Origin: Tricholoma matsutake
Lineage: Eukaryota > Basidiomycota > Agaricomycetes > Agaricales > Tricholomataceae
Reading direction: 5' to 3'
NCBI GenBank assembly: GCA_026075535.2
Contig: AP026543.1
Coordinates: 2,914,001 to 2,978,000, forward strand
Length of the DNA: 64,000 nucleotides
Each line of letters starts with the position of its first letter. The stretch's first letter is position 1. A program made the position numbers and the translations under genes. This document shows positions 3,386 through 58,195 of the stretch, piece by piece. The notes below the pieces were generated by a model that saw nothing but the letters and a program-made list of their open reading frames with translations, was not told the DNA's origin and made no database searches.

Positions 3386-3720
3386 AAGAATCCCCCCCCA
3401 CTTGCATTTGCAGCTGTTTGCAGCGAGAGGGGGGGGTGGTGGCCGTAGTCACCCAGAACAAAACTCATTGCTCCCCGTTTCCACCCCACAAGCAGTTGCT
3501 CGTGGCAGCGGTTGGGGGTGCTGTTGTGGTGGTGGTCCTCAGGTCCGCTGCTGCTTGTTGTTGTCATCCCACCTGTGATCCACCCCATGAGCAGTTGCTC
3601 GTGAGGCTGGGGGCGGGGTGTGTCATTTCTTGTTCATCACTGCTCCCATCTCTGTTATCCACCTTGTGAGCAGAGGCTTGCAACGGTGGTGGGGTGGTGC
3701 TGTCGACAGTGTCATCTCAT
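3386..3720 (-). repeat. Cassette part 2 in hAT-a: GAGC palindromes and a C-rich/G-rich hairpin
   Basis: At least two copies of a palindromic motif around GAGCAGTTGCTC occur near 3490 and 3583, with a diverged copy near 3663 (CTTGTGAGCAGAGGCTTG). A hairpin with C7 and G7-8 arms spans about 3391-3432. Read on the minus strand this lies downstream of the hairpin-exon/intron tandem array, the same order as in hAT-d. The small open frames here look like by-products of the repeat, not genes. Confidence 0.6.
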
Positions 3721-3721
3721 T

Positions 3722-4155
3722 GTTATAGCACCATTAGAACCTAAAAGTTGAATAAAAACATTAGTTAGTTAGGAAAAAACAAGAATGAAAGATAGAAAAA
3801 AATACCTAGGGCCCAAACAATGATAGATGTTGTTTGGACCCATTATAGCACCATTAGAACCTAAAAGTTGAATAAAAACATTAGTTAGTTAGGAAAAAAA
3901 CAAGAACAAAAGACAGAAATAATACCTAGGGCCCAAATGATGATAGACATCATTTGGGCTGGTTATAGCACCATTAGAACCTAAAAGTTGAATAAAAACA
4001 TTAGTTAGTTAGGAAAAAACAAGAATGAAAGATAGAAAAAAATACCTAGGGCCCAAACGACGATAGACATCATTTGGGCTGGTTATAGCACCATTAGAAC
4101 CTAAAAGTCGAATAAAAACATTAGTTAGTTAGAAAAAAACAAGAACGAAAGATAC
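3722..4155 (-). repeat. Cassette part 1 in hAT-a: tandem 120-bp hairpin-exon/intron units
   Basis: Four near-identical units with an exact 120-bp period (the motif TTATAGCACCATTAGAAC begins near 3723, 3843, 3963 and 4083). On the minus strand each unit reads as a 55-nt segment holding an inverted repeat (GCCCAAATGATG, a 5-nt loop, CATCGTTTGGGC) and ending CCTAG, followed by a 65-nt segment with a GTATTT donor, CTAACTAAC branch-like motif and TTTTAG acceptor. Predicted introns: 3741-3805, 3861-3925, 3981-4045; predicted hairpin exons: 3806-3860, 3926-3980, 4046-4100. No protein is evident. Confidence 0.75.
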
Positions 4156-4186
4156 CCACATCATACCCGTAACACCGTGGAAATGG

Positions 4187-5526
4187 TGATAGGTTGTCTC
4201 CTCAGCTCAAAGGCTGATTCACCATTTCAACCACATTCTAATCACATCAGATAACTCACACAAGGTCCCAGAAGCAGCGCGACCACTCCTGACCAAGTCT
4301 ACCAAGCGCGATATTATATTGAATGCGATCGAACATCGTCGAGCATCATATCGAACGTGATCGAGCATTGTATTGAATGCGGTCGAGCATCATATTGAAC
4401 ATGGTCGAGCATCATATTGAACGTGTTCAAGCATCGTATTGAACATGGTTGAGCATTGTATTGAATGTGGTCGAGCATCGTATTGAATGCAATTGAGCAT
4501 CGTATTGAATGCAATTGAGCATCGTATTGAATGTGATCAAACATCATCAAGCATCGTATTGAATGCGATTGAGCATTGTATCAAATGCAATCAAACATCT
4601 TCGAGCATCATATCAAATGTGATCAAACATCATATCGAACGTGATCAAACATCGTCGAGCATCGTCGAACGTCATTGATCGATATTGAGAGACTGTGAGC
4701 GACATTGGGCCCCACATTTGTTATCTATATGGTGGAATACCATGCACCAGGAAGTATTCCAACTCATGCTCAAACCTGCTGATAGTAGGTCAGCCTCGTT
4801 CCAAGTCCCTATTGTGCACAGAACCCACTGGACACATTATTGTGAGACTTAGTGCAGTTTATACACAAAGGACAGTCCCCTTTTAGTTCTATACCCTTTA
4901 TTACTCTTTCATCATATGATATATATCTTTCTTGTTCGGATTCCAGTCTCCTTTTTGGCCTTGTGCCTTAACTCATATCTTTTGCCTCATGTTCTACACA
5001 TGTTCTCTAGCCTTTTTAGGTACTTTCTTTATTTTATATAAAAAGATGTACTAGATATAAAGAAAAACAGGAAAGTCGTCGTCTTCCTCCCAGATCACAG
5101 TGATTTGAGAGTTCAGTTTAGTCTTATTCAGTCCAAAGTTTGGTGTTTTACACTAAACTTCCTCGAAATTCCTTGCATTATGCTATTTTCGCTCTCACTT
5201 CCCTTGATTAGCCTTTTCTTCACTTCTACTACTCGTTTAGTCCCCTGATCTTGTGTCCAAACATATCTACCCACTTGAAATTACTCGAAACCTCTCAAAA
5301 AGCATCGCAACATCTCAAAAAGCATCACAACATCTCGAAAATCATCACAAGTCCTCGAAACACATTCTTTTAGCCTCAAACTGCTTCGACAAGCAGTTGT
5401 TTTATGACTATTTGACGGTCAATCTGACAGGTGATGTCTAGAGGGCCTCGCATCCTTCCTCTGACTCATGTTATACCATCCAAAGCCATTTTGTGGGTTT
5501 TGTTTGGGTTTTTGGGTTGAGCATCA
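4187..5526 (+). mobile_element. LTR-like element B (solo LTR candidate) inside hAT-a
   Basis: Opens TGATAGGTTGTCTCC and closes GGGTTGAGCATCA, matching LTR-like A (753-1956) in inverted orientation. A TATA-like TATATAAAAAG occurs near 5034, placed as in an LTR promoter. A clean 5-bp duplication is not visible (AATGG against TCAAC), so the insertion is inferred from the match to copy A. It is longer than copy A mainly because a minisatellite (4312-4680) has expanded. No gene is seen in it. Confidence 0.6.
4312..4680 (+). repeat. Minisatellite inside LTR-like B, about 22-bp unit
   Basis: About sixteen degenerate copies of a unit close to ATTGAATGCGATCGAGCATCGT. Variation between copies is mostly C/T and G/A. 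The corresponding stretch of LTR-like A (about 1640-1745) has far fewer copies. The apparent open frames on both strands are repeat artefacts. Spacers are neither uniform nor unique, so this is not a CRISPR array. Confidence 0.8.
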
Positions 5527-5619
5527 TCAACGGGTACGGTATTGCCCAGGTACGGCAACTTCTGACCCGTACCCATAACCATATTATCATGGGTTTACCC
5601 ATACCCATGTCACGCCTTA

Positions 5620-6612
5620 GCCGGCGTGATGGAGAGAGTACTTTTGAGTGCGCTGGGGGAAGAGGACCACTCCACATGTACCTTGCCCACCCCATGGAGC
5701 TGGCAGACCTTGATGCCAGAGCTCTTTATTTGCAGGTAAACTCTATTGAACACTCAACATCCAAAAACTATGCTACTGGGGCTCGAGACTACATCAATTT
5801 TTGCATCTTACACTCTCTTCTGTTGGATCCTACACCCACGACATTATCCCGCTACATCGCTTACTCATCTCAATTCATCACTTCCGGACCAAAATACCTG
5901 ACAGGCATACAACATTTTCTGAAAGACCTGTACCCTGATTTTGATGCCAATCGTGCAGATCCTCTCGTAAGAAAGTATGAGTGGATCCTGTTGAGAGGAA
6001 ACTCCCACTTTGCTTGCCTCATCTGCAGTCCTTCCTCAATGTCACCCATTGCACAGGAACCTATGACAACTTTCTGTTTATTGTTCTGCTGACTTGTGCA
6101 TTCTACGGATGTCATCATATGGGTGAACTGATCCAAAAGAATGATCACAGTTTGTTTGATTGGAGGAAGATCATCAAACAGGCATCGTTGACCTCCGAGA
6201 GTGGGCGTGCACAGTATTGCCTTCCATATCATAAGGGGGATCCTTTCTACTGAGGATCTGATGTCGTTTTGACAACACAAGATGTTGCCAATCCTGTATC
6301 ACTTCTCCAGGATTATGTGCAGCTATGGGATCGTCTCCATGGCGCCAAGGCAGCCTTGTTCCTCTGCGAGAACGGCTCTCACCCTACTTAGTCATGGTTT
6401 GAACTTATAAATTCTCTGCGGTTCTCGACCGTCATTTTGGAGGACATTCCCCTCGCACAGGTTACACCACCTTTCTGGCCTCCTTGGGCATTGTGGAATC
6501 TATCATTCAAGCTGTCGGATGGTGGTCCTCAGAGGCTTGGAAAATTTACATTTGAGAAAATCCTGCAGTTAGGGTCGAACAGCAATTGGCAGCTCTCCAA
6601 CTGCATATCTAG
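5620..6612 (+). pseudogene. YR-1 tyrosine recombinase (integrase) fragment
   Basis: Contains the N-terminal core-binding region (STSKNYATGARDYINFC at about 5757-5808; TTLSRYIAYSSQF) and the catalytic region. The segment CAFYGCHHMGEL near 6097 holds the expected first catalytic Arg position, here His, a one-step G to A change. The later box GGHSPRTG near 6448 keeps the His-x-x-Arg pair, and WWSSEAWKIYI near 6520 keeps the nucleophilic Tyr. Frame changes and TGA/TAG stops occur near 5990, 6251, 6389 and 6553; the final TAG is at 6610-6612. Role when intact: integrating the circular cDNA of the retroelement. Inactive here. Confidence 0.75.
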
Positions 6613-6691
6613 TCAAATTGCTCTATGCTCCTCACTTTTCATCTTTTCTCACCTCCACCACCCCCACACACATCATCATCAGCATCTTTTA

Positions 6692-6783
6692 GCACATTCA
6701 CTCCCTCGCATATTCTATTTGGGGTCCGTTTAGGCAGGTCTCAGTTTTTCCACTATTACTTCACTCTGAGCCAGCAGCAGAGG
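6692..6783 (+). repeat. YR-1 split repeat B1
   Basis: A segment with CTATTTGGGGTCCG and GAGCCAGCAGCAGAGG that recurs at 8665-8769. It follows the recombinase stop directly. Matching ends at GCAGAGG in both copies. The copies differ mainly by C/T and G/A. In PAT/Ngaro elements B1 is followed by A2 and then B2. Confidence 0.6.
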
Positions 6784-6995
6784 TCATCGTAAAGGCAGAT
6801 TCCAAGGGCAAGGAGCATTTTCGTAGGCCTCTGCGCCATCTTGAGTTCACATGACTAGCTTCGCTATCCACATTCATTTCCCCCTTTTCACATGATCTGT
6901 ACCTCGGTGCTAGGGGCTAGCAGATGCCAGGTATAAGACAGATAAAATGCAGCTAGAAGTCTTTTTGTGTTGCTTCCTCTTGACTACCATCACTC

Positions 6996-8209
6996 TAGGG
7001 ATGCCAAAGTTCAGCTCGGTCCAGTTCTCTGAGAGATTTCTCCAAACCGCGAACCTGAACCTGATGGTGGGCAGGGAGAGGGCAGAACCGCGAACCAGAA
7101 CTGACAGAACTGGGTTTGGCAGGTTCAGTTCTGGTTTGAACTTGGTTTGAACCTTAGAACCTATGTGGTTAGCAAAAAAATGTGATTCACCCTATGAGCA
7201 GTGGCTCATAGGCATGGGGGTGGGTGCCACTGTTCATCGTTGTGGGAGGGGGGCATGGCTGTTAGCACCTGGTCCACCCTGCGAGCGAGTGCTCGCAGCA
7301 GTGGGAAATGGGTGCTGGGTCGCTGTCTCCCTCCTCCTTCGCAGTAGACACCCACGATCCACCCTAGAGTGGGTGCTCATAGACGTGGGGGTGGGTACCG
7401 TGTTGTTCAGCGTCGTTGTCGTCCATCCCTGGTGCCATCTTCCTCTTTTTGTTATGGTGGGGTAATCATTTGTTGGCATTGCCCAACATTGCTGGCACCC
7501 ACAATACCCTACAAGCAGAGGCTCATAGGCATGGGGCGGGTGCTGGTTGTTCCTTGCCAGTTCTGGGTGTTGTTGTGTCGTAATTCCTGGTTTGGTAGGG
7601 TTTGGGGAGCCATTAGCGTGGCATGGCAGGCATGAGGGTGGGGGTACATACCTGGCAGGTACCCACTACACAGCGCCATCCCTCGTACGTCGGAGCTGCT
7701 GTTCCCCCCTTTTCATTCGTCGTTTGTCATTTGAGGTGCGTGGATGCCCGTTTTCGTGGTCATCATCACATCATTACTGTAAAAAGATAAAGCAAAATAA
7801 TTAGCTAGTATAATAAAAAGAGAGAGAGAAACTTACAGGGGCCCAAACGACAAACGCATCATTTGGGCCAGTGTTGCACGCGAGGTGGTTCGTTTGTAAC
7901 CATGAAGAGTTGTTGATGGTGGAGTGGTATGGCTTTGTTTGCGCAAGTAACTTGAACAAAAGTAGCAAGTATTTTGAAACTCAGTTGCGCGGGACAGGAT
8001 TTTCGCCAATTTTTGACTTCAAAAACCTTGCGTCGGTTCTCGGTTCAAACCCGTTCGAACCGAGTTCACATAAATGCTAGAGGTGCCGAACCTGGGACCG
8101 AACCTACTGAGGAGGGAGAGAACCAGAACCAGACCGAACCAGAACCGCAGGTTCAGTTCAGGGGTTCAAGGTTCGAACCGAGGTTCTGGACCGAACTTCG
8201 GCATCCCTA
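6996..8209. mobile_element. hAT-b: non-autonomous hAT-like element in the YR-1 3' region
   Basis: Perfect 8-bp target duplication CATCACTC (6988-6995 and 8210-8217). Inverted termini TAGGGATGCC(A/G)AAGTTC. Subterminal regions are dense in AACCG/CGGTT motifs (GGTTCGAACC and similar) at both ends, a usual hAT feature. No transposase. It carries a degenerate copy of the cassette at about 7185-7875 on the minus strand. Confidence 0.85.
7185..7875 (-). repeat. Cassette copy in hAT-b: hairpin exon, intron and GAGC palindromes
   Basis: On the minus strand, GGCCCAAATGATG pairs with the following TCGTTTGGGCC (about 7836-7870). This is followed by a predicted 59-nt intron (7777-7835) with GTAAGT donor and TTTTTACAG acceptor. 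Further along the minus strand are four degenerate palindromes of the GAGCNNNNGCTC type near 7520, 7370, 7285 and 7200. Order and orientation match the cassette in hAT-a and hAT-d, though termini of the three elements are unrelated. Confidence 0.6.
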
Positions 8210-8664
8210 CATCACTCGCAAGCAACACAGGTAAGCGCTTCGCGCTCTTATTGCCGCCAGCTTCTTACTTTCACGGTACTGTTATTTAAGGCTCCGCCTA
8301 TCTGAATAACACTTACTCGCATTGTAAGAGTTTCCGCAATTCATTTCAGGCTGATCTCAACTAGGTCCTTAGGTCCTCACTTTCAGGATTCATCTGGTTC
8401 ACTGTTATAGCTCCGCTATTCTACCCAGTTGAATCTTACTTGTGAGCGGATATGGTTATCCATTCTATCTGAGTCCCTGACACAGTCACATGACAAATAC
8501 AGGCTTTATCGAATCGTTTAGCTAAACGTTCGATTTTCTTGGTTGGCCCGCCCTTCCCTCCCTTCTTTTGTTGTTTTTTCTTTTTTGCAAGACTTGAATT
8601 GTGTTTTAGTCAAACGGTCTATATCTGGTTTTGTACTATAGTCTGTCAGTGTTTGTAGTAATAG

Positions 8665-8769
8665 CGAGCGCATTCGCTCCCTCGCATTATGGCCTATTCT
8701 ATTTGGGGTCCGTTTAGGCGGGTCTCAGTTTTTCCGCTATTACTTCACTCTGAGCCAGCAGCAGAGGCG
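8665..8769 (+). repeat. YR-1 split repeat B2 and right end of YR-1
   Basis: Second copy of the 6692-6783 segment. Sequence identity stops at GCAGAGG (8769), which I take as the right boundary of YR-1. The region between the B copies (6784-6995 plus 8218-8664, after removing hAT-b) would be A2; it cannot be checked because A1 is outside the window. Confidence 0.6.
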
Positions 8770-9052
8770 AGTCGGTACTAGAGAGAGAATGAGGTCACAT
8801 GACTCAAGCGCGTCAGTTTTCCCAGCACGCAAAACATCCACTTTGGGTACACTAGCTCATTCTTCGTACGTCTACCTCAACATTCAATAAATTATTCATC
8901 TTCGTAGTTGACCTTCCACTTTGCTTGCATAAAGATGAGACATCTTTTTTTACGATTTGACCCGGAGCCGATCTGTCTGAGTGTGGAGCGTTGCTATCAT
9001 TATATTACACACGTCTTCGTACTAAACAAAATTCCCTTGCAAAAAATAGCAA

Positions 9053-12593: not shown

Positions 12594-12716
12594 TTGCGCA
12601 AGTTCCAAATTGCACCTAACCTTCCCACAGTCTGCCACATGTTAGTGGACATGATCCCATCATCACGCCCACTAATCTGTAGCAAATCTGCTTTCACCCG
12701 TGAATATACTATCACG
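12594..12716 (+). repeat. Fragment shared in inverted orientation with the RecQ-like remnant at about 50.0-50.1 kb
   Basis: The stretch encoding NLPTVCHMLVDMIPS matches the reverse complement of about 50000-50115 almost base for base across CCACATGTTAGTGGACATGA and on to CACCCGTGAATATA. At the other site it lies next to a RecQ/DEAD-like Walker A segment, so both may be pieces of one dispersed helicase-type gene. Neither copy is long enough here to name. Base composition is more CpG-rich here than at 50 kb. Confidence 0.5.
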
Positions 12717-43000: not shown

Positions 43001-44015
43001 CAGTTTGATGTGGGCTTGGATGTCTGTTGGCAATTCATCGACATGCAGTATGGGTTTGAAAATTTCACGGATTTTGGCTTTCAGTAGGTCTTCATGGTGC
43101 ATCAATTCAGCTAGGTGGGTCAGTGTTTCCATGCACTGTTTGATTGCACCAACAACGTCAAAGGGTTTGACATAGTTGAATGACATCAGTCACCTGTGGG
43201 CACTCAGTACATATTTTAGTTCTGCTAGCAGCAGTTTGCAGTCTGCATGGACTTGTTTTAGTTGCTCCTTTAGTTTCAGTCTCCTTCATTTTGGTGGTGG
43301 CAAAGGTACAGGGTTTAACAGATCATAATTGTTATATTTATCAATACAGGTTTGTGCAGCGTGGTTGGTAACTATGAAGTTGTGCAATAAGAATGGCAGT
43401 CCAAGGATGATCAAGGTACAAAGGTGTGGAGCTACAAGTGTGCATACAGTTTGAGATGTCCATTGTCCATCTAATGAAGCTACAGAGAGTTTTACCCATT
43501 TGGTCAAGGTGGTACGAGACAATGCATCAGAAGATTTGAAAGCCACATCTACAGTTTCTGGTTCGGGTAACAGGCAGCGGCATAAGCCCAGTTTTGTTAC
43601 TAGGTCTGTGTGAATCAGTATGACATGAGTGCCATTGTCTAGCAGCATGGGCATGGTAACAGGCAGTAAAGTGTAAGGCCCGCTAATGCAGGCCTTCCAC
43701 CAGAGATGGGGTGCATGGACAGGGGCACTCACCTCATCAGTCTCATCGCCTTCTGTGTCAGAACCTCCCCCCAGTGTGGATGACGCAGAGGGGAAGGTAG
43801 CAGGGGTTTCATCAGCCCAAGAACCCACAGCGGCAACTGGCTGAGTTGGCCCTTTGTTGCAGGGTCCGTTGTTCCCAGAGCTTGGGCCAGCAACAGGAGT
43901 GGTGGTGACGGTGACTGCAGGTGCCAATGTAGTTGATGCCATTGTTGGGAGAGGGTGTAAGGCATGATTAATGATCCCAGTGTATGTAGCAGCATCTGAG
44001 AAACCATAGGGGCAG
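40040..44015 (-). pseudogene. Gypsy-3 Pol: protease, RT, RNase H, integrase, chromodomain
   Basis: Protease region with MPMLLDNGTHVILIHTDLV (near 43640). RT with WVMIDMTDSFFQTGMHPDD and ICHVYLDDIIIWS (42530). RNase H with FFVTTDASNFHSGTVLS and NYPAHEKEMLAIIRALQ. Integrase zinc region with SCADCQCNKSK (41210), SDRDKLFVSKFWTAL (40940). C-terminal chromodomain with EYIVERIINS and YGPEEDQWLPGSEL (about 40090-40180). One frame change near 42822. TGA codons at likely Arg sites in the integrase. The RT-RNase H block 41382-42761 is open for 459 codons, the longest undamaged retroelement frame in the window. Confidence 0.85.
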
Positions 44016-44284
44016 TTTTTTGGAGTACTTTACACTCCCCCACCTATTCTGGTTGGATTCCAGTTTGTCCAGCTGGAATTTCCAGAATTTCTCGAATCTG
44101 GTGGAATTTTTTTTGTATGTAGTTTTCCCTATGCAGCACAATTCTGGTCGGAATAAGGATCCAATTTACAGCCGGAATCCCTGGAATCTGACTGGACTCA
44201 TCACAACTGGAATAACAGGAATAACCGGACTAACTGGAATAACTGGAATAACTGGAATGCACGTGCTTTCCCAAATAAAAGTTC

Positions 44285-44372
44285 GACACACATCAAGAAT
44301 TGAACACTCGACCTTGGGTCTGCATACATAACAGCACACTTAACCACTGAGCTACCAAGCAATTATTCTTGG
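44285..44372 (-). ncRNA. tRNA-like segment (A and B boxes), left side of hAT-d
   Basis: On the minus strand TAGCTCAGTGGTTAAGTG matches a Pol III A box and GTGTTCAATTC, about 40 nt later, matches a B box; a TTTT follows. The arms do not fold into a clean cloverleaf, so this is a tRNA-derived or SINE-like sequence rather than a functional tRNA gene. Confidence 0.4.
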
Positions 44373-44629
44373 GCATACATTTAATACTTTTATTACCCAA
44401 CCAAGGTACATAGTTAATCACAGCCATTAACGGAATAATTAATAAGTATGCATACACATGACACCTGACACATGACTGCCAGCTCACAACCACCACCACC
44501 ACTGTCACCAACGCTGCCTCCTCCTCCTCTCCACTCTACCACCACCACTGCATGTGCACCCACCACCACCATTCCCACACCCATTGCCACCATCACCACC
44601 ACCTTCAAATGAGCCGACTGGATGGAACG

Positions 44630-45200
44630 CGGGCCCAAACGACGCAGATTGCATTGTTTGGGGCCTAAGTATGTTTTTTTTCATTTGCTTCTTGTTTTTT
44701 TCATACTAACTAACTTGTTTCATTTGTTTTATAGGTTCTACTCGACTGCCAGACATAGCATGGGCCCAAACAACATGATTGGACAGAACACAGGCCCAAA
44801 CAATGCAGATCGTGTCATTTGGGCCCTAAGTAAGGTTTTTTTTGTTTGCTTTTTGTTTTTATAAACTAACTAACCTTTTTTTTAGCTTTCTAGGTTATAA
44901 TCTACTGGCAATAATGCCACCACTTGCAAACGAGCCAACGCAGGCCCAAAAGATGCAGATTGCATCGTTTGGGCCCTACATAAGTTTTTTTCATTTGGTT
45001 TTTGTTTTAATAAACTAACTAACTCATTTTTTTTTAGTTTTCTAGGTTATAATCTACTAGTAATGATGCCACCACCCGCAAACGAGCCAACACGGGCCCA
45101 AACAATGCAGATCACGTCGTTTGGGCCCTATGTGAGTTTTTTTTCATTTCCTTTTTGTTTTTATAAACTAACTAATTGTAATTTATTGCTTTTTAGGTTG
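44630..45200 (+). repeat. Cassette part 1 in hAT-d: tandem hairpin-exon/intron units
   Basis: Four hairpin segments of the form GGCCCAAAC...GTTTGGGCCC (near 44632, 44792, 44943, 45095) are each followed by an intron-like segment: 44669-44734, 44830-44893, 44981-45052 and 45132-45196. These have donors GTATGT, GTAAGG, ATAAGT (G to A) and GTGAGT, AACTAACTAAC branch-like motifs and CTAG/TTAG acceptors. Units are about 155 bp. Same arrangement as hAT-a but on the plus strand and diverged in sequence between units. Confidence 0.7.
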
Positions 45201-45484
45201 TATACTACTGGGGACGACCTGCCACAATGAAAAACACACAACCCACACCCACGCCCACCCAATCCCCTCCTCCCCATTCTAATGGGATGTGAGGCTGTCG
45301 ACACAGGCTAGGAGGGTGCAGAGGGATGCCAGGAGACCCCGGAAGGGGGGTACCTGCCTAGTAAGCACCCACCAACCTCTGTACTTGGGCCATGTCGCAC
45401 TGACGTGCCCAACCCCCCCCCCCAAAAAAAAGAAAAAAACAGAAATCCAGACAGGGGACGACAGCGACAAACAACGACAAGCCA

Positions 45485-45850
45485 CCCACCCCCAGCCTCA
45501 CGAGCAACTGCTCGTGGGGTGGATTGTGGGTGGAAGCCCAGGTGCAGGGACAGGAGATGACAATGACACACCACCCACCCCCAGCCTCATGAGCAACTGC
45601 TCGTGGGGTGGATTGCAGGTGGAACAACAACAACAACAAGCCACCCACCCCCAGCCTCACGAGCAACTGCTTGTGGGGTGGAACGTGGATGGAACGGCAC
45701 CCAGGTGCAGGGATAGGAGATGACAATGCACCACCCGCCCCCAGCCTCACGAGCAACTGCTCGTGGGGTGGATCATGGGTGGAATGACAATGATGACAGG
45801 CCACCTACCCCCAGCCTCACAAGCAACTGCTCGTGGGGTGGATCGTGGGT
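45485..45850 (+). repeat. Cassette part 2 in hAT-d: five GAGCAACTGCTC palindrome repeats
   Basis: Five copies of CCCCAGCCTCACGAGCAACT-GCTCGTGGGGTGGA-type units (near 45490, 45580, 45650, 45742, 45812), separated by GGGTGGAA... spacers of 35-60 bp. A plus-strand frame (45289-45723) repeats the peptide HEQLLVGW, but both strands give similar frames because the unit is palindromic, so I do not call a gene. Confidence 0.75.
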
Positions 45851-45879
45851 GGAAGGACAGACAACAGTGGGGTTGCGTC

Positions 45880-46150
45880 CCCTCCCCCTCCCCCATACTT
45901 CATGTGGGGAGGGATTTTTTTTGTACTCTTAATTATTTATTAGTATTGTGCCCCCCCTCCCCCGTTTTGCATGGGGGAGGGATTTTTTTCTTCAGGTTTT
46001 TACCTCCCCCCTCGCATTTGGTGCAAGGGGTTAGCTTTTTATGTATATAAATAAAACTCCCTCTCACATCTTGTGAGAGGGAGGATTTTTTGTTTATCTA
46101 TGTAATCACAATCATCCCCACTTCCTCGCATTCAATGTGAGGGATGTGGT
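45880..46150 (+). repeat. Array of C-rich/G-rich hairpins, three followed by T-runs, in hAT-d
   Basis: Five successive inverted repeats: CCCTCCCC/GGGGAGGG (45888-45915, then T8), CCCTCCCCC/GGGGGAGGG (45955-45980, then T7), CCCCTCGCA/TGCAAGGGG (46008-46030), CTCCCTCTCACA/TGTGAGAGGGAG (46057-46083, then T6) and CCTCGCATT/AATGTGAGG (46123-46144). A related hairpin occurs in hAT-a at 3391-3432 in the equivalent cassette position. Confidence 0.7.
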
Positions 46151-46231
46151 TAATTAAAAAAATTTGATCTTTCACTACTCCAAAAAAAATTAGAGTGTCA
46201 TGAATAAACATTATATTACTATCTAATAATT

Positions 46232-46325
46232 CTCCTGTGGCTCAACTGGTTAAGCACACATGTTTGGTTTGTCATGTGATCACTCTAATCAAGATGTCTT
46301 GAGTTCAATCCTTACTCTGCACAAA
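46232..46325 (+). ncRNA. tRNA-like segment (A and B boxes), right side of hAT-d
   Basis: TGGCTCAACTGGTTAAGC matches an A box; GAGTTCAATCC, about 55 nt later, matches a B box. A stem CACATG/CATGTG lies at the anticodon-arm position but with an over-long loop. The element faces outward, mirror-image to the segment at 44285-44372. Probably tRNA-derived; not a functional tRNA gene. Confidence 0.4.
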
Positions 46326-46601
46326 TATATTTTGTAGGCACTTTGACAACTTAAGACTTGAAATTTGACTATCCATTAGGGTATATACTCTAAGTTGAGC
46401 ATCTGGAGTAACCAGAATCTGGTCAGAATAACTGGAATAACTGGACTCCAATCAGAATAACTGGACTCCAACTGGAATAATTGGACTCCAACCTGAATAA
46501 CTGGACTCCAACCTGAATAACTGGACTCCAACCAGAATAACTGGAATCCAACCAGAATAACTGGACTCCGACTGGAATAGGTGGGGGAGGGTAAATTACA
46601 G

Positions 46602-47696
46602 GTTTTTTGATATGTGGTACATGTTAATCTGCCAGCACTTCCGGCAGCTGTTGTTGTTGTCAAGTTGATCGCATTTGGCAGAAGTGAGGGCAGCCAAACA
46701 CTGGATCATGCCCATGATTGCAGTGGATGTTGCAGCAGCAGCATCCACAGTATAAGTAGCAGCATTGGCTGGGCCATTGGTGCCATGATGATGCTTGTTG
46801 TTATCTTTGCATCTGTTGAACACCTCCTTGGTGACTTCATGCACATGTTTCAGGTCTGCACGGCAGTTTTCATTGTGGCATTTGACCTTGAGAGCCCATG
46901 GATGTAAGATTAGTATCTTGTCAACCTTGTTTGCATTGCAACAGCATACTAACTCAGGATCTAGACCAGCTCTGAGCTTTTCATGGAGAGAGGCATCTGA
47001 GAAGTGGGAAGCGGTATTGGCGAGAAGAGAGTTGAGAGATTGCATCTGTGAGAACCAGTCCCAGAACGACTGGTTTTGTTTCAGGGTTGCTGCTAGAATG
47101 CATCAGTGAATGGTGGGCTCCCAGTTGGGGTTAAGGTAGTTTGCACGAAGTTCAGACATAAAATCTGTAAAGGAGAGGGTCAGGAGCCTGTTGCAGTTGC
47201 TGCTGATCCAGTCACAGATTCGAGTGTCCCTGAAGCAGCCCAGGATTTTGTGGACTTGGTCTTCCTCTTTGATCTCCTTGCAGTTGAAAAAATCAAGGCA
47301 TCCCAGCTTGAAAGTGCACATCACTGCAGGATCAATCTTGCCTTCAAGAAGAATAGGTGATTTGGATTGGTGAATTTGTTTGACAGCAGCAATTTGGTTC
47401 AGAACAAATGACATATTATGCAAGGTACAGTTGTTATTGGAAAGAGGGTATTCAAAATCTGATCAGGAGTTAGACACAGGCTGAGGATGGCAAGGATGTG
47501 TATTTGGTGTGACTGTATGCATCACAGGCAGCTGCAAGACAGGTGTCTGTCTCCCATCATCGGACTCGGGGATGGGAGTTAATGTGGAAGAGGCCATAGG
47601 AGAGAGTGGCAGTGTGGAAGCAGTGCCTGATGGGCTGGCTGATGCATGGCACGATGCTAGTGTGTTGGGAGCAGAGACAGTAGTCTGCTGGCACAT
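46602..47696 (-). pseudogene. Gypsy-3 Gag
   Basis: One minus-strand frame from ATG 47696 with TGA at about 47461 and 47101. N-terminal Ser/Thr/Pro-rich part, then MSFVLNQIAAVKQIHQSKSP, VMCTFKLGCLDFFNCKEIKE, DFMSELRANYLNPNWEP and FWDWFSQMQSLNSLLANTA, a capsid-like region. It ends in the start of a zinc-knuckle segment (NNSCRKCWQINMYH) where hAT-d is inserted at 46602-46609. Function in particle assembly when intact. Confidence 0.8.
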
Positions 47697-49740: not shown

Positions 49741-49979
49741 TACCAAAAAAAGTGAAGGAAAATGTTGAGGAATGAGTGGAATACTGTGCTCATCATTGGG
49801 GATGACGAGCACAATGTGGTGCAGCAACATTGATGGCAACATCGGAGGTAGCCAAGTTTCATGTTGACATGTGCCATTGTGCCGAGCTTGATCTCTCTTA
49901 TCAGTTTGTTATCTATTGCTTACATGATATCTATATAGATTGGGTGGGCTAGGCAAGCTACCTTACACAGTTGGGAGTC

Positions 49980-50560: not shown

Positions 50561-51098
50561 AGTGAACTTTCATTCAACAAAGACACATTGTGCATACTTA
50601 GCAAGAATTATTTATGGTCTGGCTTGATTTAACACTCCGAATAATCTAAGTGACAAGATATCATGGTGGCCATGGTGTTTACCTTTGTTTTATGCCAGGC
50701 CCTCTATAGCATTTGAAACAGAAAAGTTCCTGGTTTTTCCTTGGAAAAATTCAATCACTTACAAGTCCCTGGGTTGGAGGCTGGGAAATACCCAAGAAAT
50801 TCTCAATTTTGATGACCACAGGATGTCCATGCCATTCTTGCTGCTTAGAAAATATCACATAAGCTGCACTAGGCATTGAATACTAAGGGTCCAATAGTAA
50901 GATGTCACCACCACCTCCAGTGATGGCAGCATGCAGTACAAGGGCAACTGCTGCACTGACATCAAAAATGTGAGATGAGATCACAAAGATGTCAGGTATG
51001 GAAGTCAAGGATGCAGATTCAGCAAGAGCTTATCTCATGCATGGGGCCTATGTGGTCAAGGGAGCAGAGACCAGCATGGACATGTTGAGTATGGTTGT
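50561..51098. other. Region without a supported gene
   Basis: AT-rich with short open frames and no motif recognised. It may include further decayed exons of the helicase remnant, but I see no reliable splice or protein signal. Confidence 0.4.
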
Positions 51099-51106
51099 GC
51101 TGCAAC

Positions 51107-51761
51107 TATCATTTGAAGGTCTGGTTTGTTGAACTGGAAAAAAACTGAAGTCAAACCAGACTGAACCATGGTCCAGTTTTTTTATCGGTTGTGGTTGCCT
51201 TACATTTCTTGACAAACTGGTTGCAGTTAGCATTTGAAAGTCCAGACTGGTCCAGTTTTTTGGCATCCCAGGAAGGCAATCGCAACCAGACTGGCTCAGG
51301 TAAATTACCAAATAAGAAAAAAACTGGACTGGACTGATACGAACCAGTTTTTTCAGTCTTTTGCATTCAGGGACTGTGCCAGACTGGTTGCAACTGGGTT
51401 TTGAAACAAACTTTGGTTGCAAGTTGACCAGTTGCCCTACCTCCGAGCTCCCTTCAGATTCAAAATTTAAGGAAATCAATTAAGAACTGACTTAGTTATG
51501 ATGAAAACAATCTGTCAATGTTTTCATTAGGTTCAGATATTTGTGCAACTTTGTTCTTATCATAACTAAGTTAATTCTCAACCAATTTCCCTAAAAGTTG
51601 GAGCATTTTGTAGCTATAGAATAGACCTATTGACAGCAATCAACAGTTTGGTCTATGACCAGTTGCAACCAGACATTTGGTCTGGTTGCCTCTGGTCTAT
51701 TTTTTGGTCTGGTCTGGTCCAGTCCAGTTTCCAGTCCATGTGACTGGACTTTCAAACACTA
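51107..51761. mobile_element. hAT-e: short non-autonomous hAT-like element
   Basis: Inverted termini TA(T/G)(C/T)(A/G)TTTGAA(G/A)GTC(T/C). Flanking 8-mers GCTGCAAC (51099-51106) and GTTGCAGT (51762-51769) differ at three positions, all transitions. Subterminal CCAGTCC/GGACTGG motifs recur at both ends. A central inverted repeat pairs GACTTAGTTATGATG (about 51488) with TATCATAACTAAG (about 51558). No coding sequence. Confidence 0.6.
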
Positions 51762-51895
51762 GTTGCAGTTGCGCAGATTGAACATTTATTAAAGACCAAC
51801 AAAAGTCAGTCCTAACTGGTTACAACTGGTCTATGTATATCGTACTACAATATAATAAAAGTGGGGACAAGCTCAGAGCAAATGAAGCACAAAGC

Positions 51896-52117
51896 TGAAC
51901 CAGTCAAAAACATTTGACCAAGGTCTACGCAAGCGATCAATTCTTATCTGATCTTTATCTTCCTTTTCATACATCTCTTTCATGGTCCCTCTTGATACAT
52001 CTCTTTCATGATATGCATATTTAGATTCCTCCCCATGTCTCGTTTCCATGTCCTGCTTCTTTCCCCATTACTCACATAGAGCTCGTTAGTCCTTTGGACT
52101 CAAGATTTCTTCTTTCT
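51896..52117 (+). repeat. YR-2 split repeat A1
   Basis: Starts TGAACCAGTCAAAAACATTT, ends ATTTCTTCTTTCT; matches A2 at 56251-56472 with scattered transitions. It overlaps the first in-frame ATG of the gag-like ORF (52094). Confidence 0.9.
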
Positions 52118-53239
52118 GCAGGAACCATTCCTTTGTCTTCAAAGATGAGTCTACCATGCAGCTCTGATGGTTGTTTCCTCCCTCAGTGTGCTGCCCCTTC
52201 TGCCATAGTGATGCACCTAGCCAGACACGCCAAACTTTGCACCCAATCAGTCCCTAGACCTTCTGCCCCCTCACCACCACTGTCGCCATCACCTCTTTCA
52301 TCCCCTTTGTTGCCCTCTTTGTCGCTGTCTTCCATTTCATCCCTCTTAAGCTCCTCTCGCCCACCTACACCATTATCCATGTCAGACAATGTCGGTAGCT
52401 CTTTTCCCAACCTGCCAAACCCTCCCCTGGCTGATAGTGCAGCCTCCATGGCTTCCATCTTGTTGCTTTTTGTGGGCATGGCTCAACAAAACCAGCAACT
52501 TGGTATGCAAGCCCAGAACAACCTGCCTGCGCCCGTTGCTCCTGCACCACCATCTTTCCCAGCATTCATCTCCATGGACGTCTCCCATGCTGGTAAGTCA
52601 CCCCCTGGCCTGTTCCCTGCTATTGAGACAAGCATGCTTCTGGAAATTGCCCAGAATGAGTCCCACCCAATTGATCTCTGCAAGCTGGATTTGTGTTTCA
52701 GGAATAAAGTGGATGTCGAGCATCTGGAAAGCACCACATCCTGTGTTGGGGCACTTAAGGAGTACCCATCCCTCCATTCCCTTCTCATCCCCCTTTTCAC
52801 TTATTTTGCTGTTCTTCAAGCCTTTTCCGCCTCTGCTGGCGATGCACATGCTACTTTCCTCATTGGTCACAGTGCGGCTCGCTATATGGCTCACCTTTTA
52901 GACCTTCACCAGAACTACAAGTGGACAGCTGTGGTTCAGTATCATATGCAATTCCATCTCCACTGCCACCAAGAGATGCTCAATGGGTCTTACTCTGGCT
53001 GGGCCCAGCCCAACCAGCTTCTGATGTCCAAATACCTTTTTGGTCACATGTGTGCTACTGGTGGCACCTCCTCATCGTGCTCTGGGTCTGGGAAGTCCAA
53101 GCACAATGTCAGCAGCAAGACATGTTTTGCTTTCAACAAAGGATCCTGCTTGACATCCCCCTGCCTGGACAGATGCATTCACAAGTGTTGCAAATGCAGC
53201 GCTACTGATCATGGTGAGAAGACATGCAAGAAGACCTAG
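52094..53239 (+). pseudogene. YR-2 Gag-like protein
   Basis: 381 codons to TAG 53237-53239. Ser/Pro-rich N-terminus (residues 50-100), a middle domain with DLCFRNKVDVEHLES and SARYMAHLLDLHQNYKW, and a C-terminal Cys/His cluster CFAFNKGSC...CLDRCIHKCCKC...HGEKTC typical of Ngaro Gag. The TAG probably replaces a Trp codon because the same frame stays open into the RT. Confidence 0.75.
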
Positions 53240-55022
53240 GGGCCTGGCTCGGTGGGCCTGCAGCCTGCTTCATGCACTGCCACCTGCTGGTGCCAACGTA
53301 TGCACTCTGATTCCTCATCAGTCTCGGTTCCCTCGTCAACCATCTCCACCTTGCCTTTCATATCTAACCTCCCTCATACTGCTTTATTCCTGCCTAGTCC
53401 ACCACCACCATTGTGCCCTAATTCCAATCCACACTGTAATACCTATAATTCTTGTGCATCTCCTTCCCCTCCCATCTCCACTCCCCTCATATTTGCTGCC
53501 TGGCACCACTATCTTACTGACTACCCTGACCCCATATTTGTAAAGTCTATTCTCAATATAATTCAGTTTGGTGCCAACATTGGCTTTTTGGGTGAAGAGT
53601 CTGGGAAAGCTTGCAGGAATCTTAAGTCTGCTCTGGAGCATAAGGATTTTGTTGATGTCTCTGTCCAATCTCTTCTGGATAATGAGCATGCTGCCAGCCC
53701 TTTCACCTCCCCTCCCCTTCCCAAATTTTGTTGCTCCCCACTGGGTGCAGTTGGTCACAAACATAACCCAGGGAAGCTTTGCATTATTAAACACCTTTCA
53801 TGGCCATGTGGGGGATCTGTCAATGATGACATTCCTGATGATGAAGCCCATATTGTCTATGACATGTTCGAGCATGCAGTCCACAATCTGAGGTGTCTTG
53901 GCCATGGTGCTTTGATGGCCAAGCTCAATCTGAAAGAAGCATTTCACCACATTCCCATTCAGGCTGCTGATTGGCATCTCCTCAGCATTGACTGGGGCTC
54001 CAGGTTTTATTACCCGCTTCTGCTGGCATTTGGGCTTAAGTCTGCGCCATACATTTTTAACCTCTTTGCTGAGGCTCTTCATTGGATCATCCAGTGACAC
54101 ATCCCATCAGCACTTCACCATTATCTGGATGACTTCCTCCTCACATTCCATTCCTCCTCCGATCCCTCATATGCAATGCTGCAATTGAATGGGTTTTGGC
54201 TTTAGGAAACGAACTGGGGCTTCGTTTCCAAGACTCTAAAACAGTCAGCTCAAGTTCCTCAGACTCGAGCTAGATTCTATTATGATGGAAGCTCGCCTTC
54301 CATCTGATAAGCTTGCTTACTTGACAGATCTATTGGACAATTGGACCCTGAAGACTAAATGTACTTTGCATGAGCTCCAGGAACTTACAGGGTTTCTCCA
54401 GTTCACATCGCAAGTCATTCCAAAGTCAAGGACATTCATCCACCATCTCTTTGATTTCTCATCGACATTCACATCCCCCTTTGCTACCCGCTTTATTCCT
54501 AAATCTGCTGCATCTGATATTCATTGGTGGCAGACTTTCAGTGCACAATGGAATGGTGTAATGGTCCTTATGCCCTCACTTCCCTCCATCTCTGTCTACA
54601 CAGATGCTAGTGGGTGAAAGGGCTTGGGTGGTGTGATGAGTGACCAATGGTTCTCTGCTTGGATGCTGCACTGCTATCGCTGCCGTGACATTCAATTTAA
54701 GGAGATCTTTGTGATCTTACATGTGATTCTTTGCTGGGGTGACTCATGGGCAGGGCTTCATGTTACTTTTTTCTGCAACAATTCAGCAGTTGTCGCATGG
54801 ATGAACTCTGGGACTGCCAAATCCCCTCATGTGATGCCAGTGCTCCAGGTGATTACCATGCTGGCTGCTTGTCTCAAATTTTCTTATTCTTCTATTTGGA
54901 TTTCTACTGTGGAGAACTCGCTCACTGATGCTGCATCTCGTTTCCAGTACACCAGGCTTTTCCAGCTTGCCCCGCACCTCCCCTCAAACCCTCATCATGG
55001 AAACCCCACCTCATTGGTATGA
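53240..55022 (+). pseudogene. YR-2 reverse transcriptase and RNase H
   Basis: RT in the Gag frame: NPGKLCIIKHLSWPCGGSVN, LMAKLNLKEAFHHIPI, FGLKSAPYIFNLFAEAL, then TGA (54095; likely Arg) and the catalytic box HHYLDDFLLTF. A frame change near 54230-54270 leads to EARLPSDKLAYLTDLL and RNase H: VYTDASG, TGA for Trp at 54615, KGLGGVMSDQWFSAWM, FKEIFVILHVI and CNNSAVVAWMNSGTAKSP. In the last motif Asn replaces the expected catalytic Asp (G to A). Non-functional. Confidence 0.8.
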
Positions 55023-56034
55023 AGTGCACTCTAACATGTCACCCCATGCTGCCTTCTACCTCTGGCATGGCCTTGCCTCTGGCACCCGCAACACTTACTC
55101 TACAGGTCAAAAGTCCTACCTCGACTTTGTCCACCTTGAACCCAGTCTCCTTGACCAGCCTGGCAGATTCCTGCCAGCCACAGATAGGTCCATTGTCGAG
55201 TGGGTGTGCTCCCTTGGTGATTGCAGGCTGCAGCCCAAAACCATTAAGGGCTACCTCTCCACCGTTCATTCCCTCCATGTTGATGAAGGCTTACCTTTCA
55301 CAGCTTGTGAGTCCAAGTCAGTGTGCCAGGTCATTCATGGCATCAAGCGCTTCCATGGAGAGTGTGAGCATAATCCCAAGCAACCCATCACTCTCCCCAT
55401 CCTCCAACAGCTTGCATCAGTTGCTGGCAATCTCTCCATCATTTTCAATGCATCTGTTGATGCTGCCACCAAACTTGCATGGGCTGGTTTCCTGCATTGT
55501 GGTGAATTCACCCTCAGCCATGGTGAGAAGTTCAATGCAGCCTTGAACCTCACACATGGATGTGTGACATTTTTTCCCTCCATTGAGGATCCCACACACA
55601 TGAGGCTTGATCTTCCTGCTTCAAAGACTGACCTGTTTTGCAAAGGCATGTCAGTTTTGATTGCCAAGGCACCTGTGCCAGTGGGTTCTACAACATGTGC
55701 TGTTTCCACACTTCAACACCTTTTCACCATTGATCCCCAGCCACTCAATGCTCCTCTCTTCTCTGATCCCGATGGCTCCCCCCTCACATGCACCACCTTC
55801 GTCTCCACACTCAAACAATGTCTTACATTGCTCAGCATCGTCACATCGCAGTTTGCTGGTCACAGCTTCCACCAGGGGACTGCTTCTGCTGCTGTTGCTG
55901 TGGGGTATGCAGATCATGAGATTCAGCTTCTCAGCTGCTGGGGCAGCAACACATACAAACTCTACATTGATGTTCCACATGAGCGCATTCTGGGTCTCTC
56001 TGCATGTCTCCATTTGGCCACTCCTCATGCTTAG
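54928..56034 (+). pseudogene. YR-2 tyrosine recombinase, open 368-aa frame with mutated catalytic arginines
   Basis: Uninterrupted from ATG 54928 to TAG 56032-56034, overlapping the RNase H frame. N-terminal core-binding domain with TRNTYSTGQKSYLDFVHLEP and TIKGYLSTVHSLHVD. Catalytic domain: WAGFLHCGEFTL (His at the first Arg position), FAGHSFHQGTASAA (His-x-x-His where His-x-x-Arg is expected) and CWGSNTYKLYIDV (Tyr present). Both Arg positions are one G to A step from His, so the protein should be inactive although its frame is intact. Confidence 0.82.
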
Positions 56035-56078
56035 CCTTTCATTCCTCTGGCCCTTTCCTTTGCTCCTGCCTTTGTGGC

Positions 56079-56250
56079 TTGAGTTTGGCCTCCCATCACA
56101 GAGTCCATGTGAAAGAGCTTGGGCAACCAAATACATTTATTTGCTTGCAAACCTCACAGACTCGTGCCTTTAAGACCTGAGCCCTGTGATCTCTCCTAGC
56201 ATCTCTCCCTCCTCTCCCCTCCTTGTCTCATCTTGGGAGCCAGGCATAGA
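56079..56250 (+). repeat. YR-2 split repeat B1
   Basis: 172 bp; contains CCCATCACAGAGTCCATG and GGAGCCAGGCATAGA; matches B2 at 56571-56742. It abuts A2 with no spacer. Confidence 0.9.
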
Positions 56251-56472
56251 TGAACCAGTCAAAAACATTTGACTGAGGTCTATGCAAGCAATCAATTCTT
56301 ATCTGATCTTTATCTTCCTTTTCATACATCTCTTTCATGGTCCCTCTTGATACATCTCTTTCATGATATGCATATTTAGATTCCTCCCCATGTCTCATTT
56401 CCATCTCCTGCTTCTTTCCCCATTACTCACATAGAGCTCGTTAGTCCTTTGGACTCAAGATTTCTTCTTTCT
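56251..56472 (+). repeat. YR-2 split repeat A2
   Basis: 222 bp; second copy of A1 (51896-52117). The spacer to B2 (56473-56570) is unique, pyrimidine-rich and non-coding. Confidence 0.9.
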
Positions 56473-56570
56473 CCCACCCCTCATAGCCCTTACCCCTCTT
56501 TTCTGTTTTTTCTTTTCTTGTTCTTTTTCTTTAGCACTATACTCATGTATGTACATTTGCCTGTGCTGGA

Positions 56571-56742
56571 TTGAGTTCAGCCTCCCATCACAGAGTCCAT
56601 GCAAAAGAGCTTGGGCAACCAAATACATTTATTTGCTCACAAACCTCACAGACTCATGCCTTTAAGACCTGAGCCCCGCGATCTCTCCTAGCATCTCTCC
56701 CTCCTCTCCCCTCCTTGTCTCATCTCAGGAGCCAGGCATAGA
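56571..56742 (+). repeat. YR-2 split repeat B2 and right end of YR-2
   Basis: 172 bp; matches B1 with a few transitions. Similarity stops at GGCATAGA, which marks the right boundary of the element. Confidence 0.9.
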
Positions 56743-56875
56743 AAGGGTTTATATTCCTTGGGGCTGTGCACAGACCATTTGGTCATGTGCTCCCAAAAAA
56801 GAAAGTGGCACCACTTGCCAAATGATGGCCAACAAGGACCCATGCCTCCCACCTTTCTCTGTCTGCACCCACCAT

Positions 56876-57677
56876 TAGTGTTTATAAGGGCAACCTAAGC
56901 CTCTAGCAAAGGGAAATCCGAAGTTAAAATTATACTACATAATACAGGCATTGGGGACACACCTAGCAAAGGAAAATCCAAAGAGAAAACTCTAAGGATC
57001 CCCTTGCTGATGCCCAGTATATGTGAAGACAACAAAAATCAAATATAACCTAAAAATAGAAAAAGGTGGAGATAGGCGGATCAAGGCTGCCGAATGACAT
57101 CATACCAAGGGGTATGTGTTGGAAGGGGTACTCTGCCTCTAAATATAAAAGTGTCAACATGTACAAACATGATAGCAAGGGAAAATTAGTAATAAAATCC
57201 GGAAAAATCATAGAAAATGAAGAATAGAAGGAAATGAGGTGGGGAAAAATATAGGACAAACATAAAAAATAGGAAAAACACACAGGGCACCCCCCTAGTC
57301 CCCTTACAGTGTTGCCTTGACCGACTTGGGGTATTTTTGTATTTTTGAAATAACTTGACACAATGCACTCAGCCTGCTTAGTGTTCAGAGAGGACCCATC
57401 AACTTTTGGGGCTCTCTATCTATATAAATATTTTCAGAGTTCCATACAATTTATTGGAATTGATATTGCCTTTGACTCATTTTTTGCAAGTCAACCAGCA
57501 AAAATGAGTCCAAGGCAATATCAACTCCAATAAATTGTATAGAATTCTGAAAATATTCACAAAGATAGGGAGCCCCAAAAGTCGATGGGTACTCTCTCAA
57601 CACTAAGCAGTCTGAGTGCATTGTGTCAAGTTATTTTAAAAATACAATAATGCCCCAAGTCAGTCAAGGCAACACTA
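56876..57677. mobile_element. Foldback hAT-type MITE (371 bp without its insert)
   Basis: Perfect 8-bp duplication CCCACCAT (56868-56875 and 57678-57685). Ends TAGTGTTGCCTTGAC and its inverse. The two halves (57314-57480 and 57490-57677) are near-perfect inverted repeats about 175 bp long with a short loop, so transcripts would fold into a long hairpin. R1 copy 2 is inserted seven bases inside its left end. Confidence 0.85.
56883..57308 (-). mobile_element. R1 copy 2: 426-bp solo-LTR-like repeat inside the MITE
   Basis: Same length and ends (TGTAAGGGG, CCCTTATA on the minus strand) as copy 1 at 2007-2432. Flanked by the 5-bp duplication GTGTT (56878-56882 and 57309-57313), which is part of the MITE terminus. 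Confidence 0.8.
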
Positions 57678-57719
57678 CCCACCATGCACCCCTCAATACA
57701 AATGACTGAATGCAATGGG

Positions 57720-57900
57720 CCCAAAAACATTAGCTGCCGCTTGGGCCCCAGGTTATGTTTTATCATTCTATCCTGTTCTTTACTAATGAACTTCTTTTCT
57801 TCATTTTTAGGTTCTTACCTTTTGATATTGATGACAATGATGATGTGGCACACCCCACCTGCGAGCCACTGCTTGTAGGGGGAGATGCACAGGGATACAG
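57720..57900 (+). repeat. Cassette copy at 57.7 kb: hairpin exon, intron, GAGC palindrome
   Basis: A diverged GGGCCCAAAAAC...GCTTGGGCCCC segment ends at CCAG and is followed by a predicted 59-nt intron (57752-57810: GTTATG donor, TACTAATG branch-like motif, ATTTTTAG acceptor). Then GTTCTTACC and one GAGCCACTGCTTGTAGGGG palindrome near 57865. Order matches the three cassettes inside hAT elements; no terminal repeats were found for an enclosing element here. Confidence 0.55.
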
Positions 57901-58195
57901 CAATGACAAATGGGGACAACAACATGACAACAACAAACAGGGACAACATGGGCAACAGTGAATGGGGATGACAACAACACAGCAATGATGAAAGGGGGGG
58001 ACAACAACAACACAGCAATGATGAACATGATGACACAGCAACGATGAATGGTGGGGACAATGATGACATGGCAATGATGAACAGTGGAAATGACAATGAC
58101 ATGACAAGGATGAATGGCAGGGATGGCAATATCATGGCAAGGACAAATGGTGGGGACAGGGATGATGCTAATGATAACAATCATGATGGGGGATG
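57900..58195 (+). repeat. Degenerate GA/AC-rich minisatellite
   Basis: Repeats of GGGGACAACAACA and ACAGCAATGATGAA-like units 30-40 bp long. The plus strand can encode an Asn/Asp/Gly/Met-rich repeat and the minus strand a His/Ser/Pro-rich one, both artefacts of the repeat. Confidence 0.65.

Follow-up and report, generated by a model that had tools for sequence, protein, structure and literature searches.

Passages of PMC9674265 describe MarorhAT-4, MarorhAT-11, and MarorhAT-12 of Marasmius oreades as short hAT transposons that lack a transposase, are thought to be mobilized in trans, and have related terminal inverted repeats (TIRs); the words "intron," "hairpin," and "noncoding" occur 0 times in the main text of that paper. 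Here, we describe a module of hairpins and introns within hAT elements of Tricholoma matsutake, found in a stretch of 64,000 nucleotides (nt) (C6:2914001-2978000, the whole of which is called the window below) and throughout the genome. Its elements, like MarorhAT, are short non-autonomous hATs. Unlike MarorhAT, however, they place unrelated TIR types around one structured, intron-bearing interior.

Introner-like elements, which are repeated spliceosomal introns, were reportedly described by van der Burgt in 2012. The T. matsutake module resembles introners in that they, too, are repeated spliceosomal introns tied to DNA transposons, according to passages of PMC9860276. In contrast to introners, its intron lies within a longer cargo, beside an exonic hairpin, and inside hAT elements wherever ends were located. 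The hairpin of a plant miniature inverted-repeat transposable element (MITE) is usually the element's own inverted repeat, whereas the T. matsutake hairpins are internal, often arrayed, linked to introns, and common to several families. The plant MITEs that give rise to microRNA genes are also small DNA transposons with hairpin-forming sequence (PMC10004981). A noncoding mobile repeat is known in Tricholoma as well, namely megB1, which passages of PMC10627285 present as a dimeric Alu-like retrotransposon of Agaricomycetes that lies in the ribosomal DNA spacer in many fungi. It is by this description that megB1 is set apart here from the T. matsutake cargo. No such cassette was apparent in the titles and abstract beginnings returned by the literature searches.

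The first-pass annotation of the window had claimed that a hairpin, an intron, and GAGC palindromes are common to three elements, hAT-a, hAT-b, and hAT-d, and to a fourth locus (locus 4). This was borne out. Nine copies of a first hairpin (H1), all at those loci, are accompanied by their introns and by a second type of hairpin (H2) in one order and on one strand. H1 reads GGGCCCAAA...TTTGGGCCC and is followed by a spliceosomal-type intron of about 65 nt, with its 5' splice site abutting H1, and then by H2. We believe that the module is probably a spliced, structured noncoding RNA gene that forms the internal cargo of several non-autonomous hAT families of T. matsutake. It has a fixed order, H2 shows RNA-type covariation, the sites number in the thousands, and the hAT vehicles have at least four types of terminal repeat. 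From these features of the DNA, we infer that the cargo would be transcribed and spliced, that its RNA would have a function, and that different ends would have captured it. The first-pass annotation had missed the marks of an RNA gene, which are strand-specific loops, pairing that tolerates G-U, a donor abutting H1, and T-poor, exon-like flanks.

As that annotation had suggested, the module was searched for in the genome, and it reaches far beyond the window. The genome (T. matsutake TMA_r1.0; 161,040,721 bases in 13 contigs) holds 4022 exact sites of the H1 pattern, GGCCCAAAN{10,22}TTTGGGCC, while the same pattern reversed gave 0.

Pairing in the H2 hairpins

Forty sample loci were taken from the listed H1 sites on contig C1, with their flanks unseen at the time of choice; they are 0.8 to 1.2 kb long, mostly too short to show element ends, and contain 47 H1 in total. 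The first 20 loci cover 21 of the 45 listed sites of that C1 stretch (the 24 skipped were mostly tandem clusters or repeat copies), and the second 20 are consecutive site clusters. The strand of the module was set from T content, the difference between the two sides being below 0.25 in 15 of the 47 H1. One locus with a different palindrome (L081) was dropped, leaving 39 module-bearing loci in 16 sequence clusters, with 19 loci d-like.

H2 has the architecture stem-GAGC-[A/C]NCT-GCTC-stem; the hairpin spans about 55 nt, and its stem, which is imperfect, reaches about 20 pairs at most. The motif [GA]AGC[AC]NCTGCT[CT] was matched 45 times in sense to the intron, at 30 of the 39 loci, and 2 times in antisense; two of the sense loops are AGCT, identical when read on either strand. 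When the loop was left free and pairable outer bases were required, 43 of 45 sense loops proved to be [AC]NCT. By inspection of single-sequence folds, the GAGC-loop hairpin formed in 30 of 31 domains.

These 31 H2 domains, less than 85% identical and drawn from 43, make up a gapless alignment (A1). Under a fixed three-helix structure, 74.2% of its cells are paired (95% in helix 3 and 76% in helix 2), and double changes are found in 15 of 19 pairs. A1 had a covariation score of 0.327; shuffles gave 0.201 ± 0.015, none of 500 reaching the score of A1, and slid structures did not exceed 0.134. An unfiltered recount of 44 unique H2 sequences gave 40 G-U and 4 A-C at the six non-CpG pairs; the two CpG pairs, the control for strand-biased mutation, gave 13 G-U and 15 A-C. 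Such a G-U excess at non-CpG pairs would be expected if the sense RNA must pair and unexpected if a DNA palindrome alone mattered. The H2 of family a had derived G-U:A-C ratios of 34:5 at non-CpG pairs and 16:11 at CpG pairs, but with three H2 positions pooled, these were set aside as evidence.

A covariance model (R1) was built from A1 only, with no window sequence in the training set. Since that set includes relatives of family d, R1 is independent of the window but not of the window's families. R1 gave 13 matches in the window at E < 0.001, each on the strand of the module and none outside the four reported loci (five in hAT-d, three in hAT-a, four in hAT-b, and one at locus 4), and a 14th match (E 0.095) was the antisense of a hAT-d hairpin. 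Across the genome, the H2 pattern had 8066 forward and 3031 reverse matches, with 0 for the control. Forward matches overlap, 100 listed rows amounting to 35 distinct sites, so the genome contains several thousand H2. That the module might be a simple-sequence composition had been raised in the first-pass annotation; the count of 4022 against 0, the covariation, and the strand-specific H2 are evidence against it. Most of the differences among module copies of family d (L009-L028), and among the sample loci, are changes of CpG to TpG/CpA, as cytosine methylation of repeats would be expected to produce.

H2 could serve as a precursor of small, milRNA-like RNAs, and Dicer would then process the cassette as a primary transcript. 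Such a role is one form of the RNA gene proposed above, and the length and imperfect stem of H2 would suit it. MicroRNAs derived from MITEs are known in plants (PMC10004981). The most conserved part of H2, however, is the loop-proximal GAGC-MNCT-GCTC rather than one arm, and we consider a precursor role somewhat unlikely.

Vehicles, window loci, and probable exchange of interiors

Target site duplications (TSDs) of 8 bp together with short TIRs, by which hAT elements are recognized, were found in families a, b, and d and in a fourth end type, F70. As first annotated, the TIRs of a, b, and d differ, although two of the TIR types begin with TAGGG. In the d family, all 20 fetched copies had both ends, and the module lay between these each time; these copies were selected via the hairpin-intron unit, and the counts therefore show the position of the module and not its universality. 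Their TSDs were exact in 13, differed by one transition in 4, and were poor in 3. The b family had exact TSDs in 6 of 11 copies, one transition in 2, and no usable pair in 3, and the a family had exact TSDs in 7 of 20, one mismatch in 5, two mismatches in 2, and both ends not found in 6. Flanks are identical within the pairs L014/L028 and L051/L053, each of which may be duplicates of one insertion. F70 (L070 joined to L109) is 1379 nt long with ends TAGTGTTTTAAG...CTTAAAACACTA and a one-mismatch TSD. L080 has its left end in common with F70, and the left ends of L083, L085, and L093, which read GAGGTCTTTACACTCCCCC, are of a d-related kind. No right end could be located for these four loci (F80, F83, F85, and F93); the right side of F93 runs into other repeats. 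No hAT ends were found at locus 4, at L058-L061, or within the 40 short sample loci.

In the window, introns are 59 to 66 nt long and begin 2 to 3 nt after H1 on the module strand, with a GT start in eight of nine and ATAAGT in the other. hAT-d (44023..46601, +) has TIR-like ends GAGTACTTTACACTCCCCC / GGGGGAGGGTAAATTACAG and an exact 8-bp TSD, GTTTTTTG, at 44015-44022 and 46602-46609. It carries four hairpin-intron units, all on the plus strand: H1 at 44631..44665 (fold of 44626-44670, z -3.3) with an intron at 44669..44734 (GTATGT...TAG), H1 at 44792..44826 with an intron at 44830..44893 (GTAAGG...TAG), H1 at 44942..44976 with an intron remnant at 44980..45045 whose donor is ATAAGT, and H1 at 45094..45128 (fold z -4.8) with an intron at 45132..45196 (GTGAGT...TAG). 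Five H2 follow at 45476-45541, 45565-45630, 45635-45700, 45725-45790, and 45795-45860 (R1 E 2e-14 to 1e-12). Where the first-pass annotation gave each cassette one intron, hAT-d thus has four tandem units and hAT-a three, and the third hAT-d intron has lost its GT.

Downstream of these H2, also on the plus strand, the hAT-d sequence has further hairpins (H3) at 45880..46150, each with a C-rich and a G-rich arm and several followed by T-runs. Two examples were folded (z -2.7 and -6.0), and this zone is possibly the 3' end region of the cargo. Strong H3-like hairpins with such arms, several then followed by T-rich stretches, are seen near the cargo 3' end in three families (45880-46150; 3393-3440, minus strand; and F70, L070+L109), and hairpin and T-rich stretch together are a possible transcript end signal. 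tRNA-like stretches that point outward lie just inside both hAT-d ends, at 44303-44370 (-) and 46233-46320 (+), and in the L093 family, a similar one (L114) is found close to the left end. The hAT-d stretches contain what we take to be A- and B-box signatures, but ARAGORN calls none of these stretches, nor the L114 one, as a tRNA gene.

The module of hAT-a (3193..5619; TIR TAGGGCATGACATGGG) is on the minus strand. The element stood as first annotated, but its window copy is swollen by a nested 1.36-kb insertion (4187-5548), whose two flanking parts join at a single point in copy L029. Of the 14 hAT-a copies with both ends, 13 measure 0.7 to 1.4 kb and one 2.5 kb. The insertion carries a 22-nt tandem repeat (ATCGAGCATCGT-like), and parts of it reappear inverted at 1230-1954. 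The TSD of the window copy, GCCAGTGC/GCCGGCGT, is degenerate with three transitions. Three H1 (3809-3841, 3929-3961, and 4049-4081), three introns (3741-3805, 3861-3925, and 3981-4045; GTATT...TAG), and three H2 matched by R1 (3462-3527, 3561-3626, and 3638-3706) lie on the minus strand.

hAT-b (6996..8209; TIR TAGGGATGCC) has an exact TSD, CATCACTC, at 6988-6995 and 8210-8217. Its module, likewise on the minus strand, consists of one H1 (7839..7870), one intron (7777..7836, GTAAGT...CAG), and four H2 matched by R1 (7168-7233, 7255-7320, 7340-7404, and 7487-7549). Locus 4, on the plus strand, has one H1 (57717..57748), one intron (57752..57810, GTTATG...TAG), and one H2 of inner helices only (57850..57887, R1 E 3e-5). 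Directly upstream of it is a near-perfect palindrome (~90%) of 369 nt with a 15-nt spacer (57308-57676), and both sit between two copies of another repeat (56903-57222 and 58239-58556). By eye, open reading frames (ORFs) of the window (1-64000) resemble remnants of DIRS-type (tyrosine recombinase), Gypsy, and helicase-bearing elements.

A single ancestral hAT family could have carried the module while its terminal repeats diverged later, as the first-pass annotation had itself considered. Order and strand are alike in all four window loci, two TIR types share their TAGGG start, and the kinship of d with the families whose left ends read GAGGTCTTTACACTCCCCC is plain. Ends and interiors of the b type, however, do not travel together. 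b-type ends, which are 78 to 87% identical over about 170 to 200 nt, surround H1 in L049-L057 and the window copy but other interiors in L063-L068. One piece of L063 matches PF05699, the hAT dimerization domain, at E 9e-13; L064 and L068 hold pieces closely similar to it, and L065-L067 have another interior. Of 27 a- and b-related loci scanned with R1 (9 of the 20 from a and 18 of the 20 from the b search), 21 had matches at E < 0.01; the matches totaled 78, a few of them weaker antisense matches of the same hairpins. The six without a match were L063-L068, so b-type ends can enclose either the module or transposase remnants that lack it. L062 and L049 have b ends that are 86% identical and no other alignment above 80 nt, yet L062 has two internal H2 matches, and both loci carry H2. 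The same b ends around differing interiors imply that interiors were exchanged or replaced faster than ends. The ends of d and F70 are, in addition, unlike those of a and b. This evidence is less final than that against simple-sequence composition, but it makes a single diverged family unlikely.

The first-pass annotation had favored a mobile or repeatedly captured module. An ordered module inside unrelated hAT ends is what we found; self-movement is without support, as no terminus of the module's own appeared in a search for TSDs and TIRs around modules. PF05699 matched 151 times in the genome, from 150 of 449 candidates scored. None of the six listed PF05699 matches at C1:0-10 Mb lay within 10 kb of a listed H1 site, both lists being partial; on C1, the H1 list is complete only to 2.99 Mb and thereafter holds only sites followed by GTAAGT.

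H1 and its intron

H1 was followed by GTAAGT 0 to 12 nt downstream in 728 + 733 = 1461 matches, compared with about 26 expected (4022 × 2 sides × 13 places / 4096, at equal base frequencies) and 0 for the reversed control. The intron also has a CTAAC-type branch point and an AG end. A rule requiring donor, branch, and acceptor was satisfied on one side of 28 of the 47 sampled H1 (26 in its strict form) and on both sides of 0 in either form; at random positions of the same loci, it was satisfied in 3.9% (loose) and 2.1% (strict) per direction. By inspection, a T-rich homologue of the intron flanks one side of 46 of the 47 H1; L081 is the exception. T content is 68% in the first part of the intron region and 53% in the second; it is 28% in the window and 14% over the 50 nt that precede H1. 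Between 50 and 150 nt upstream of H1, the sample has a C-rich stretch (C 34 to 37%, T 25 to 27%). H1 ends about 2 to 7 nt before the donor. U1 pairs with positions -3 to +6 of the 5' splice site, and H1, at the edge of the paired stretch, may steer splicing or mark the junction. The inner pairs of H1 are nearly all CpG, and the G-U:A-C ratio of 187:105 across 170 related copies was set aside as evidence. On C1:860923-1066157, the same pair of H1-pattern sites occurs three times at about 95-kb spacing (860923/878301, 957472/974900, and 1052065/1066125), which suggests a large tandem segmental duplication.

H1 and H2 are strongly palindromic, and H1 is nearly symmetric. Both could be DNA palindromes, such as protein-binding or cruciform sites, with the intron-like tract as a T-rich spacer that is itself a DNA feature. 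A DNA palindrome does not predict that G-U far exceeds A-C at non-CpG pairs. Strand-specific H2 loops also speak against this explanation, as do a donor, branch, and acceptor in intron order beside H1, and we regard it as quite improbable. Nor do we favor an introner-like mobile intron, in which the hairpin-intron unit would insert itself into host DNA. The units are indeed tandem, 120 to 160 nt each, with an intron inside and thousands of sites. However, the conserved module reaches to H2, roughly 100 to 400 nt downstream, the units lie inside hAT elements wherever ends were located, and the hairpin is exonic; the string "basidiomyc" is absent from the main text of the introner paper PMC9860276. 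Self-inserting introns are accordingly very unlikely here.

The cargo matched neither a known RNA family nor a protein. Rfam gave no family at gathering score in the whole window, and a permissive search of 44400-46250 gave 16 weak matches, none of which attained that score (best E 0.007). No common ORF was found in four elements, spliced or unspliced; their longest sense ORFs (73, 81, 91, and 132 amino acids) are of low complexity and, compared by eye, unlike each other. The H1 pattern had 0 matches in viral contigs. Fanzor/TnpB-like nucleases do occur in eukaryotic transposons with structured RNAs, but that the cassette is the guide RNA of such a nuclease riding in hATs is highly implausible, as the module is internal and intron-bearing and the zinc ribbon PF07282 had 0 matches in the genome (3 candidates scored; control positive in 6 of 14 named genomes), a search that intron-split genes could escape.

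A proposed structured RNA as transposon cargo

Several points weigh against a spliced RNA gene. The arms of H1 were fixed by the search pattern, so their invariance carries no evidential weight, and domains were admitted to A1 only if the four outer bases of helix 3 were pairable, A-C allowed. In the outer helix of H2 (P1), just 49% of cells are paired, and the RNAalifold prediction contains the two inner helices only. The binomial p of 1.7e-8 for G-U against A-C is indicative only, as the 39 loci are related and their independence is overstated. When whole elements were folded, sense and antisense windows with z < -2.5 numbered 5 and 5 of 44 in F70, 4 and 1 of 39 in b, and 18 and 13 of 84 in d, the sense strand being not clearly stronger. 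The 76 AACT-looped H2 of family d have changed almost exclusively by CpG transitions (G-U 32, A-C 28). Individual inserted copies of this family show no visible constraint; constraint on H2 is visible between families, i.e., in lineages that spread. Lastly, the loose splice rule failed at 19 of the 47 sampled H1, and many of these belong to a d-like subfamily with the donor ATAG|ATAAGT or similar, which multiplied nevertheless. This implies that splicing is unnecessary for DNA transposition, and any benefit of the RNA would therefore be in trans or in the past.

For the RNA gene that we favor, we propose the following course. RNA polymerase II would transcribe the cargo: the C-rich stretch lies upstream of H1, and polymerase III would be halted by the T-runs near the start of the intron. 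Splicing would join H1 to the H2 exon, and the spliced transcript would fold into an H1-plus-H2 RNA. hAT transposases provided in trans would mobilize the element DNA. The fold would be kept in spreading lineages, while inserted copies would decay, mostly at CpG. Template switching during gap repair after excision is a known route to non-autonomous hATs. Unrelated ends would most likely have come to enclose a common cargo by repeated replacement of hAT interiors in this way, after which the cargo-bearing versions would have spread.

As to what the RNA might do, our best guess is that it binds a host factor involved in RNA binding or RNA silencing, from which the element or its relatives would benefit; the constant loop-proximal motif of H2 resembles protein-binding hairpins. 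A further possibility, which we raise tentatively and with some doubt, is that the RNA itself is the selfish or regulatory unit, repeatedly taking over the ends of different hAT families and acting in trans. If it occupied a factor of silencing or RNA decay, for example, elements with the cargo would outcompete plain deletion derivatives.

Non-autonomous DNA transposons are usually thought to need their ends only. If the RNA were such a unit, it would be a class of RNA passenger undescribed for DNA transposons, as far as the titles, abstract beginnings, and passages of the literature go. In the matsutake genome, 25.4% is given as "unclassified" repeats (PMC10211490, Table 2), and part of these may be this cargo. 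Taken together, thousands of copies of one fold in differently ended hATs imply that the interior is selected at the RNA level, now or until recently. This bears on whether elements that parasitize transposases come with RNA weapons or RNA shelters.

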